From NCBI RefSeq assembly GCF_000236585.1, contig NC_017278.1:2170001-2234000 (forward strand): a DNA stretch of 64,000 nucleotides, in the 5' to 3' direction. Positions within the stretch are counted from its first letter, which is position 1; every line of letters begins with the position of its first letter. The notes beneath the pieces were generated by a model, which was not told the DNA's origin, did no database searches, and saw only the letters and a program-made list of their open reading frames with translations. Both the position numbers and the translations under genes were made by a program. This document shows, one piece after another, positions 35,722 through 62,755 of the stretch. This DNA is from Thermus sp. CCB_US3_UF1. GTDB lineage: Bacteria; Deinococcota; Deinococci; Deinococcales; Thermaceae.

Positions 35722-36423
35722 ATGCTCCTCCTGGTGGGCCCCACCGATGCGGGCAAGACCACCTTGGCCCATAGGCTTCTGGCCCAGGCGGGGGAAGCCT
35801 ACCTCCTGGACCTGGACCCCGGGCAGGGGGCTTTGCCCGGGGCCTTCACCCTCTTCCACTACCGGGAAGGGGGACTTACCCCCGTGCGCCGGGCCCTCCT
35901 GGGCGGCCTCTCCCCGGCGGGCCTCGAGGCCCAGGCGGTGGTGGCGGCCCTCCGCCTGGCCCGCCTCATCCCCCGGGGAAGCCCCGCCATCGCCGACACG
36001 GACGGCTACCTGGACCCAGGCTTCCGCCTGCTGCAGATGGAGGCCCTCGCCCCCACCGAGGTCCTCCTCCTGGGGGCTGAGGGGCTCTACCGGGCCCTGG
36101 CCTGGCGAAAAGACCTCCGGCTCCGCCTGGCCCCGCCCCTTCCCGGGGCCCGGAGGAAGACCCCCGGCGAAAGGCGGAGAAACCGCCTTGAAAGGCTTTT
36201 GGCCCACTTCCAAGGGGCAAGGCCCAGGAGCCTGCCCCTGGAGGCCTTGGGGGAGGCGGGAGGCCTCTACGGCCTCCTGGACGGGGAGGGCTTCCTCCTG
36301 GGCTACGGGCGGCTTTTGGCCTTCGCCGGCGGGGAGGGCCTCTTCCTCACCCCTGTGGGGGAGGAGGTGGCCAAGGCGGTGCCCACCCGGCTCCGCCTCC
36401 TTACCCCCGCACTACCAGGTTGA
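35722..36423 (+). CDS. Clp1/Grc3-type polynucleotide 5'-kinase
   Basis: 233 residues. The P-loop [15 protein letters not shown] (G6-T13) has the GPTDxGKTT form typical of Clp1/Grc3 kinases, and [13 protein letters not shown] matches the family's DxDxGQ motif. Further family-like features are the Arg-rich lid ([14 protein letters not shown]) and a C-terminal beta domain. Clp1 proteins phosphorylate RNA or DNA 5'-OH ends; they are known mainly from eukaryotes and archaea, with a few bacterial members, including I believe one studied from Thermus scotoductus. This one lacks the extra N-terminal domain of eukaryotic Clp1. An RNA-repair or tRNA-end role is inferred. It overlaps the convergent leuS by 23 bp. 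Confidence 0.82.
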
Positions 36424-39037
36424 GGATCTTCCCCGGCACGTAGATCTCCTTGAGGACCTCCTTGCCCTCCAGGTGGGCCTGGACGTTTCGCACCTTGCGG
36501 GCCTCGGCCAGGGCCACCTCCAGGGGAGCGTCCTTGGGGATCTGGATCGTCCCCCGCACCCGGCCGTTCACCTGCACCGCCACCTCCACCAGCTCCCTTT
36601 CCAGGGCCTTCTCGTCCAGCTCGGGCCAGCCCGCCTGGAAGAGGCTATCAGGCCAGAACCAGTGCCAAAGCTCCTCCGCCAGGTGGGGGGCGAAGGGGAA
36701 GAGCATCTGCAGGTAGTAGCGGATGGCCGTGCGGTACACCGGGGTCACGGGGGCCACCTTGCGGTAGTCGTAAAGGGCGTTCAGGAACTCCATGAGGGCG
36801 GCGATGGCGGTGTTGAAGCGCAGGGCCTCGAGGTCCTCCGTGACCTTTTTCAAGGTGGCGTGGAGCTTTCCATAAAGCTCCTTGTCTGCCCCCTCCAGGG
36901 CCTCGGCCTGGAAGCGGCCCGAGGTGGCCAAGAGGGCCTCCTTGTCCTCGGCCACCCGGCGCCAGACCCGGTTGAGGAAGCGCCAGGCCCCCTGCACCCC
37001 CTCCTCGGTCCAGACCATCTCGTTCTCCGGAGGGGCGGCGAAGAGGATGGTGATGCGGGCGATGTCCGCCCCCTCCTCCCGCACAAAAGGTCCCACCATG
37101 ACCCCGTTGCCCTTGGACTTGCTCATCACCGCCGGCTTCCAGAGGTGGAGGGAGCCGTCGGCATGGGGCCTAAGCTCCGCCCCCATCTTCCGCACATCCT
37201 CCAGGGAAAGCTCCCCCTGGGCCATCTCCAGCTGGATGCGGGTGGGCTCGGGAAGGCGCACCCGTTCCCCCTCCACCTCCACGGGGCCGAAGTCCGTCCA
37301 GGCCAGGACCATGCCCTGGGTGAAAAGCCCCAAGAAGGGCTCTTCCACCTCCACCAGACCCAGGTCGTGGAGGAACTTGGTGAAGAAGCGGCTGTAGAGG
37401 AGGTGGAGCACCGCGTGCTCCACCCCGCCGATGTACTGGTCCACGGGCATCCAGAAGCGGGCCTTCTCCGGGTCAAAGGGGAGGCGCCCGTTCTTGGGGT
37501 CGGTGTAGCGCAGGTAGTACCAGGAGCTGTCAAAGAAGGTGTCCATGGTGTCGGTGTCCCGCTTGGCGGGGCCGCCGCACCGGGGGCAGGTGGTCTCGTA
37601 AAACTCCGGATGGGCCTCCAGGGGGCTTTTGCCCTTGGGGCGGATGTCCTCCACGTCCTTGAGATCGGGAAGGAGGACGGGAAGCTCCTCCTCGGGGACG
37701 GGCACCACCCCGCAGGCAGGGCAGTGGACCATGGGGATGGGGGTGCCCCAGTAGCGCTGCCGGCTGATGAGCCAGTCCCGCAGGCGGTAGGTGATGCGGC
37801 GCTTGCCCAGGCCCCTTTCCTCCAACCAGGCCACCACCCGCCCCTTCCCCTCCTCGCTGGGGGTGCCGTCAAAGGGGCCGGAGTTGACCATGACCCCCGG
37901 CTCCTCGTAGGCCCTCTCCAGGGGTTCGGGGAGGGGTTCTCCGGGCCGCTCGATTACCTTCTTGATGGGGAGGCCAAACTTCTTGGCGAACTCAAAGTCC
38001 CGCTGGTCGTGCCCCGGCACCCCCATGATGGCCCCGGTGCCATAGCCAAAGAGCACGTAGTCCGCGGTCCAGATGGGGATCCTTGCCCCCGTGGCCGGGT
38101 TGAGGGCGTAGGCCCCCAGGAAGACCCCGGTCTTCTCCCGTCCCTCCGCCTGGCGCTCGATCTCCGTCTTACGCTTGGCGGCCTCCACGTAGGCCTGGAC
38201 CTCCGCCCGCCGTTCAGGGGCGGCCAGGCGCAGGGTCAGGGGGTGCTCGGGGGCCAGGACCAGGAAGGTGGCCCCGAAGAGGGTGTCGGGCCGGGTGGTG
38301 AAGACGGGGATCCTCTCCTCCCCCTCGGCCACGGGGAAGTGGATCTCCGCCCCCTCCGAGCGGCCAATCCAGGCCCTTTGCATGGCCTTCACCTTTTCCG
38401 GCCAGCGGAGGCCCTCCAGGTCCTCAAGGAGCCGGTCTGCGTAGGCGGTGATGCGCAGGTACCATTGCTCCAGCTCCCGCTTCTCCACCGGGGTGTCCTC
38501 GTGCCGCCAGCACCGCCCCTCCACCACCTGCTCGTTGGCCAAGACGGTCTGGCACTTGGGACACCAGTTGACCAGGCCCTTGGCCCGGTAGGCCAGGCCC
38601 TTTTCCCACATCTTCAGGAAGATCCACTGGTTGAAGCGGTAGTAGTCGGGCTCGCAGGTGGTCACCTCCCGGTCCCAGTCGTAGAGGATGCCCATGAGCT
38701 CCAGGCTCTCCTTGGCCTGGCGGATGTTCTGGTAGGTCCAGTCCCGGGGATGAAGGCCAAACTTGAGGGCGGCGTTCTCCGCGGGCAGGCCGAAGGCGTC
38801 CCAGCCCATGGGGTGGAGGACCTGGTAGCCCTGGACCCGGCGGAAACGGGCCAGGACATCCCCCATGGTGTAGTTCTTCAGGTGGCCCATGTGCAGGTCC
38901 CCCGAGGGGTAGGGGAACATGACCAGCACGTACTGCTTGCCCTTGGCCCCAGGTACCTCCTGGGCCTTCATGAAACCCTTTTCCTTCCAAAAGCGTTGCC
39001 ACTTGGGCTCAATGGCGTGGGGGTTGTACTTCTCCAT
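36401..39037 (-). CDS. leuS: Leucyl-tRNA synthetase
   Basis: 878 residues. Class Ia synthetase. HIGH motif as HMGH (49-52) in [20 protein letters not shown] as VMSKS (637-641), the zinc segment [10 protein letters not shown], the CP1 editing domain with [20 protein letters not shown], and a second Cys cluster TTCPRCGGP. The start ([11 protein letters not shown]) follows GGAGGAG with normal spacing. Expression appears to be controlled by an attenuator between 39051 and 39139 (see separate entries). Confidence 0.98.
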
Positions 39038-39050
39038 GGCGCTCCTCCTC

Positions 39051-39078
39051 AAAAAAACCCTTCCCCTTGGGGGAAGGG
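39051..39078 (-). terminator. Intrinsic terminator in the leuS leader (attenuator)
   Basis: On the minus strand: CCCTTCCCC (39078-39070), a 3-base loop, GGGGAAGGG (39066-39058), then seven T (39057-39051). It stands directly before the leuS ribosome site, so it terminates before the gene rather than after one. A competing 8-bp pairing is possible: the 5' arm with GGGAAGGG at 39096-39089. Confidence 0.88.
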
Positions 39079-39079
39079 A

Positions 39080-39120
39080 CGGCCAGGCCCCTTCCCGCCT
39101 TCAGGGGGCTAGCCTGGCCG
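39080..39120 (-). promoter_or_regulatory. Anti-antiterminator stem and antiterminator segment of the leuS leader
   Basis: A 9-bp perfect inverted repeat: CGGCCAGGC (minus strand 39120-39112) with GCCTGGCCG (39088-39080). Its loop holds GGGAAGGG (39096-39089), which can instead pair with CCCTTCCC of the terminator. The 5' arm lies inside the leader ORF, at codons Ser3 to Leu6, so a ribosome there would open the stem. Confidence 0.75.
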
Positions 39121-39127
39121 AGCTCAT
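39101..39127 (-). CDS. leuS leader peptide, 8 residues
   Basis: ATG AGC TCG GCC AGG CTA GCC CCC TGA encodes MSSARLAP. The ATG is 6 bases after TATGAT, the same leaderless geometry as full genes here. It contains one leucine codon, CTA, a little-used codon in this genome. The stop is 4 bases before the antiterminator strand GGGAAGGG, so a ribosome finishing the peptide would cover that strand. This fits a leader peptide that senses charged tRNA-Leu. Confidence 0.65.
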   Translation of the reverse strand: MSSARLAP

Positions 39128-39133
39128 GGCACC

Positions 39134-39139
39134 ATCATA
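39134..39139 (-). promoter_or_regulatory. -10 box of the leuS leader transcript
   Basis: TATGAT, 6 bases before the leader-peptide ATG and a few bases after the stop of the upstream YihY gene. Confidence 0.65.
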
Positions 39140-59315: not shown

Positions 59316-59335
59316 CCCCGGGCCGCCAAGCAGGG

Positions 59336-59341
59336 TATCCT
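59336..59341 (+). promoter_or_regulatory. -10 box of leaderless pheST promoter
   Basis: TATCCT, 7 bases before the pheS ATG. No attenuator or leader peptide precedes it. Confidence 0.65.
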
Positions 59342-59345
59342 CTAG

Positions 59346-62755
<3,410 letters not shown>

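Follow-up and report, generated by a model that had tools for sequence, protein, structure and literature searches.

Organization of the leuS upstream region

The window analysed here is a stretch of 64,000 nucleotides from Thermus sp. CCB_US3_UF1. Its minus strand carries the gene leuS (36401-39037, start codon ATG at 39037), which encodes a leucine--tRNA ligase. The deduced protein matches the family TIGR00396 with a score of 1062.7 bits, and its closest structure, aligned end to end, is PDB 1h3n, the T. thermophilus enzyme. The upstream gene is yihY/brkB-like and is itself preceded by proA and then by proB. A compact element is located between yihY and leuS, at positions 39139-39051 of the minus strand. 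It starts with the -10 box TATGAT (39134-39139), about 6 nt after the end of yihY, and six bases separate this box from the ATG (39127) of a leader ORF of eight codons (39101-39127). This ORF reads ATG AGC TCG GCC AGG CTA GCC CCC TGA and encodes the peptide MSSARLAP. Transcription is predicted to begin with the A of its ATG. Codon 6 (39110-39112) is the leucine codon CTA, the putative sensor of the element. This codon is little used, as the first-pass annotation of this DNA had proposed, since it represents 77 of the 2528 leucine codons (3.0%) counted in 43 genes of the window.

The leader ORF is part of a set of possible pairings. Segment A (CGGCCAGGCT, 39111-39120), lying over codons 3-6, and segment A' (GGCCTGGCCG, 39080-39089) are the two arms of a stem, named here the protector stem, which amounts to 10 bp when the outer pairs are included. 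The loop of this stem contains the antiterminator strand, segment B (GGGAAGGGGC, 39087-39096), with GGGAAGGGG four bases past the leader stop; the final bases of B overlap the 3' arm of the stem. Further downstream is an intrinsic terminator, CCCTTCCCC-CAA-GGGGAAGGG (39058-39078, -16.5 kcal/mol), a 9-bp hairpin with the arms T5 (CCCTTCCCC, 39078-39070) and T3 (GGGGAAGGG, 39066-39058), followed by a tract of seven T (39051-39057). The Shine-Dalgarno sequence of leuS, GGAGG (39044-39048), comes directly past the T tract. The order of the segments in the leader RNA is thus A-B-A'-T5-T3. The -10 box, ORF, CTA codon, stem, antiterminator, terminator and T tract had all been listed by the first-pass annotation and were found again at the positions that it gave.

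Conservation of the leader in the genus Thermus

The element is present upstream of leuS in the 27 Thermus species genomes compared (27/27), where the reading frame is kept and each leader has one in-frame CTA. The first-pass annotation had named the lack of a conserved leader ORF or pairing across Thermus as the result that would contradict it; the comparison gave the ORF and the CTA in every genome. The box TANNAT, a spacer of 6 nt and a start codon ATG or GTG are found in 28 of 28 Thermus-type leaders, a layout by which the RNA would begin with the start codon, and CTA is present in the same 28. The ORF comprises eight codons with CTA at codon 6, except in the leaders L027 and L032, where it has seven codons with CTA at codon 5. 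Codons 2, 3 and 7 vary freely. AGG at codon 5 and CCC at codon 8 are conserved as well; these two lie in or near the pairing segments, which accounts for their conservation.

The comparison shows that A and A' form 7 to 10 uninterrupted pairs in every distinct Thermus-type sequence except L027/L032, that B and T5 can form 8 to 12 bp in all of them, L027/L032 included, and that the terminator consists of 8 to 12 bp in all of them. The leaders L027 and L032, from two Thermus genomes, start with GTG and encode the peptide VRASLRP; they have no protector stem and keep CTA, antiterminator and terminator. Of the two signals for which an alignment had been suggested, the conserved leucine codon was observed (27/27 Thermus genomes) and compensatory covariation of the protector stem is weak: the substitutions in A:A' are mostly from G-C to G-U, with one clear change from A-U to C-G (L036), and the covariation score was equalled or passed by 38 of 500 shuffles.

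Distribution in the order

Leaders containing CTA were detected in 62 of the 75 genomes examined across the order, Thermus counted, and the other 13 have no leader. Outside Thermus they are found in 20 of 22 other genomes of the same family, and in 8/12, 1/2, 3/3 and 3/9 genomes of the families f4, f2, f3 and f5, respectively. The length of the ORF, Thermus and relatives taken together, ranges from 7 to 17 codons. The order-wide sequences are too diverged for an alignment; only the CTA leucine is constant and the surrounding residues vary completely, as in the peptides MRFVKRLALT, MQWFIHLELP, MQGCVQLVQT, MIWAGLART, MTRTGLPPA (L141), VKGSALPRR, MRLFIRLELP (L052), MIASALENRGDRD (L155), MIHSGLDNSGSRQA and MPVATNLLQLGGPRR. 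There is one CTA per leader in Thermus and one to three elsewhere (CTA CTA CTA in L154), and every convincing leader elsewhere in the order carries this codon. The count over all leaders, in which 62 of 80 leucine codons are CTA, is partly circular because CTA was required for collecting the leaders outside Thermus; CTA was not a criterion for the Thermus set nor for the order-wide upstream scans.

Outside Thermus, the antiterminator strand usually begins at the stop codon or just past it (GGGGAGGCC), and in the families f2 and f3 it begins within the codons that follow CTA. In both arrangements, a ribosome completing the ORF would disrupt the antiterminator. The RNA structure differs between genera and the ORF with CTA stays.

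Some genomes depart from this scheme. In L053, L056, L146, L147 and L149, leuS has no leader, and in L146 and L147 a TATACT box runs straight into the Shine-Dalgarno sequence, as if the attenuator had been deleted. A clear T tract is missing from L040 and L051, which do possess the leader ORF. In the three Meiothermus-like genomes L040, L051 and L053, a tRNA-Leu gene with the apparent anticodon TAA adjoins the leuS leader (L040, L051) or leuS itself (L053).

Occurrence of the layout and nature of the element

Both strands of the window were scanned for a -10 box, 5-7 nt, an ORF of 5-17 codons and then, within 75 nt, a strong hairpin with at least five T. This layout occurs once, at the leuS leader. 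A scan upstream of about 65 other loci for aminoacyl-tRNA synthetases and biosynthesis in four genomes, with GlnRS/GluRS, ArgRS, AlaRS, CysRS and IleRS outside its coverage, detected nothing comparable, its chance matches being tRNA genes and one ORF of five codons. As a negative control, 75 leuS loci from distant phyla gave no leader, the five ORFs found there being chance-like. The fold energy of the leader is ordinary for its composition (z = -1.2), so that the case for the element is made by conservation and layout and not by stability.

This ordinary fold energy, like the short distance between the end of yihY and the -10 box, would also fit a plain terminator of yihY followed by the promoter of leuS, with the ORF and the pairings as chance by-products of a GC-rich sequence. 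However, the terminator is downstream of the -10 box and therefore also acts on leuS transcripts. Moreover, the frame, the CTA and the spacing are conserved throughout Thermus (27/27) and beyond, and the leader remains where the upstream neighbours differ, as with the tRNA-Leu gene before L040 and L051. We regard this explanation as hardly credible.

The leader RNA could also be bound directly by LeuRS, by another protein or by a ligand, as in autogenous control or a riboswitch, with an incidental short ORF. The strong conserved structure is in line with such binding, and aminoacyl-tRNA synthetase genes can be under autogenous control, E. coli thrS being an example. No match to Rfam was obtained, however, and the covariance model of the T-box (RF00230) detected nothing in the window stretch or in eight related loci. 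Against direct binding also stand the changes of RNA structure between genera, through which the ORF with CTA persists, and the leaders L027/L032, where the protector stem is missing and the ORF, CTA and B:T5 are kept. Such direct binding appears very improbable. Arrest by the nascent peptide was considered and rejected, the peptide being very short and its non-leucine residues unconserved across the order.

Pairing of the leader RNA as a function of ribosome position

The exclusion of the terminator by the antiterminator was modelled on 24 distinct Thermus-type leaders. The nascent RNA was folded up to T5, with the footprint of a ribosome forced to be single-stranded; the model is thermodynamic and not kinetic. 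At 70 C, the median probability that T5 is bound by B is 0.07 with no ribosome and 0.89 when the A site of a ribosome is placed on CTA; with the A site on the stop codon it is 0.04. The value at CTA is above the value at the stop in 24 of 24 leaders, at 37 as well as at 70 C, and this order holds for footprint edges from +8 to +15 (24/24). These values, together with the pairings present in all distinct Thermus-type sequences, agree with what had been proposed from the single sequence, namely that terminator and antiterminator are mutually exclusive and that a ribosome at CUA would lead to antitermination and a ribosome at the stop to termination. Nascent RNA ending at T5 was chosen because equilibrium folding of the complete transcript is a poor test: for many species it gives the terminator as the preferred fold, also when a ribosome is placed at CTA. 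Since the finished terminator usually wins at equilibrium, the switch would have to be decided during transcription.

When the ribosome is moved along the ORF, codons 2-6 are permissive and the probability falls to 0.76 at codon 7, 0.44 at codon 8 and 0.04 at the stop. CTA at codon 6 is thus the last codon that leaves the antiterminator fully free in the model. It follows that any pause at codons 2-6 antiterminates in the model, and the specificity for leucine is deduced from the conservation of CTA. The permissive codons 2-6, along with the conservation of codons 5 AGG and 8 CCC in Thermus, leave room for a translation-dependent attenuator with no leucine specificity, which would report the general speed of translation or the initiation on the leader, with CTA as a slow codon setting the basal level. 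Its inputs could be an antibiotic, the arginine codon AGG, the proline codons or tRNA modification. Yet CTA alone is constant across the order, where the neighbouring residues vary completely, and the product of the regulated gene charges tRNA-Leu; a sensor of translation in general is therefore judged unlikely.

The masking model discriminates poorly between the ribosome states in genera other than Thermus. A pooled test owes its P value (4e-10) to Thermus and is set aside; in this test, the terminator was mis-called for some leaders outside Thermus (L049, L057 and L150 among them) and not found for L036, L044 and L143.

Proposed mechanism

Our favoured interpretation, to which we attribute a probability of about 0.85 from the sequences and the folding model, is that the element is a ribosome-mediated transcription attenuator of leuS, sensing the charging of the tRNA-Leu that reads CUA. 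The anatomy and the conservation of the element are observed and the pairings shift as required in the thermodynamic model, and from there we infer the start site, the stalling of the ribosome, the termination and the response to leucine as follows. Transcription would begin at or beside the leader AUG, so that the RNA would be leaderless and a ribosome would initiate at its 5' end. In the absence of a ribosome, A:A' would form, B would be trapped in the loop, and the terminator would fold and stop transcription. When the CUA-reading tRNA-Leu is poorly charged, a ribosome would wait at codon 6, covering A and freeing B, which would pair with T5 before the 3' arm of the terminator is made, and RNA polymerase would continue into leuS. 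With well-charged tRNA-Leu, the ribosome would get to the stop and cover B, and the terminator would form. More LeuS would restore charging, which makes the circuit a negative feedback.

Of the features by which such attenuators are recognized, the leader has a short ORF with a codon cognate to the downstream gene (CTA before leuS), an intrinsic terminator between this ORF and leuS and, in computation and less clearly outside Thermus, an antiterminator that would be switched by the position of the ribosome. A run of regulatory codons is absent, Thermus having one CTA; such a run is usual and not strictly defining, given the single Trp codon of S. lividans trpL2. What sets the element apart is its single CUA, kept over a whole order, together with its small size and an antiterminator enclosed by the protector stem. 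A broader reading, to which we give slightly less than an even chance, is that an attenuator exists throughout this order of Deinococcota with one rare synonymous CUA as its constant element and a single tRNA-Leu isoacceptor as its sensor, that its RNA structures have been rebuilt several times, and that the Thermus leader is a minimal form of 77 nt with a loop-trapped antiterminator.

Relation to known attenuators

The leuL leader of Salmonella and E. coli has several control codons, is preceded by a Shine-Dalgarno sequence and controls leucine biosynthesis, not leuS. It has in common with the Thermus leader the CUA leucine codons as control. In the Salmonella leu leader, CUA is the sensitive choice, and theory designates it as the most suitable leucine control codon in E. 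coli and predicts weak or costly sensitivity for one control codon (PMC1183508). According to Carter 1986, as cited in PMC1183508, the replacement of three CUA by CUG reduced the sensitivity. A leader-peptide attenuator has been predicted before leuS in Streptomyces (Seliverstov 2005, PMC1262725), and in S. lividans RNA-seq indicates that leuL2 (MRAVRLLLSEPR) before leuS is transcribed leaderless, as is trpL2 before trpS, which has one Trp codon (PMC8079986). The Streptomyces leuL2 resembles the Thermus element as a leaderless leader-peptide attenuator before leuS, with a hairpin and a U tract; it differs by its run of three leucine codons and belongs to a different phylum. The single control codon of Thermus is paralleled by that of trpL2. 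The first-pass annotation had called the element unusual and compact; the small size stands, and "unusual" was partly wrong because leaderless leuS and trpS leaders in S. lividans and CUA control codons in Salmonella leu had been described.

As in the enterobacterial trp and his attenuators, the antiterminator and the terminator exclude each other according to the position of the ribosome, with termination by default when translation is absent. Those attenuators pair the segments 1:2, 2:3 and 3:4, whereas in Thermus A:A' encloses B in its loop and, short overlap aside, the exclusion between A:A' and B:T5 is by crossing and not by strand sharing. Canestrari is said to have described, in 2020, mycobacterial leaderless short polycysteine ORFs acting as attenuators in cis. 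These are similar in being leaderless short ORFs with sensor codons; they differ by runs of Cys codons and by a response to cysteine. The T-box likewise controls aminoacyl-tRNA synthetase genes through uncharged tRNA and antitermination; unlike it, the Thermus leader needs no specifier loop nor tRNA-pairing bulge, the sensing being left to the ribosome. In Deinococcus, T-boxes have been reported for ile and gly only (PMC2494555). Leaderless genes are predicted to represent about 39% in Deinococcus-Thermus (PMC3160421). According to a statement of 2010 (PMC2965389), leader-peptide systems had been demonstrated in Proteobacteria and Actinobacteria only, apart from new hisS cases in Firmicutes.

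A literature search, with subscription papers mostly outside its reach, gave no description of the Thermus leuS element or of its order-wide version, no leader-peptide case in this phylum and no attenuator topology with a loop-trapped antiterminator. The principle of attenuation was already known and, as far as we found, the leuS version of this order is a new case in its phylum. If the proposed attenuator is real, leader-peptide attenuation of aminoacyl-tRNA synthetase genes would have an ancient origin and a wide distribution in the Thermus-Deinococcus lineage. With its single conserved CUA, the element offers a test of the theory that leucine is best sensed through a rare isoacceptor, and of the sufficiency of one control codon. 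Since the ribosomes and RNA polymerase of Thermus are structural workhorses, a leaderless attenuator of 77 nt would lend itself well to in-vitro studies of how transcription and translation are coupled.

Other leaders

Elsewhere in the window, pheS seems to be leaderless (59335-59352; TATCCT, six bases, ATG), with no attenuator upstream. Before metS of the same genome (L164), a TANNNT box and 6-8 nt precede the ORF ATG/GTG AAG GGC ATG CC... TAG, encoding MKGMPxx, then a GC hairpin and the terminator CGGGGCGCATGCCCCGG with a T tract. This leader is present in its own genome and in 18 of 20 other Thermus genomes (L174-L193). It may sense initiator Met-tRNA. Its codons 3-6 repeat the 3' arm of the terminator, so that the untranslated leader RNA may antiterminate. 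Upstream of ilvB (L250-L253), the leader MRSVLALSLALVLIVGPAGGRV contains the codons CTA, CTA, CTA, ATC and GTA and is followed by the terminator CCCCCCGG/CCGGGGGG. With recognisable counterparts in four genomes, it appears to be a CTA-rich branched-chain attenuator of the classical type.
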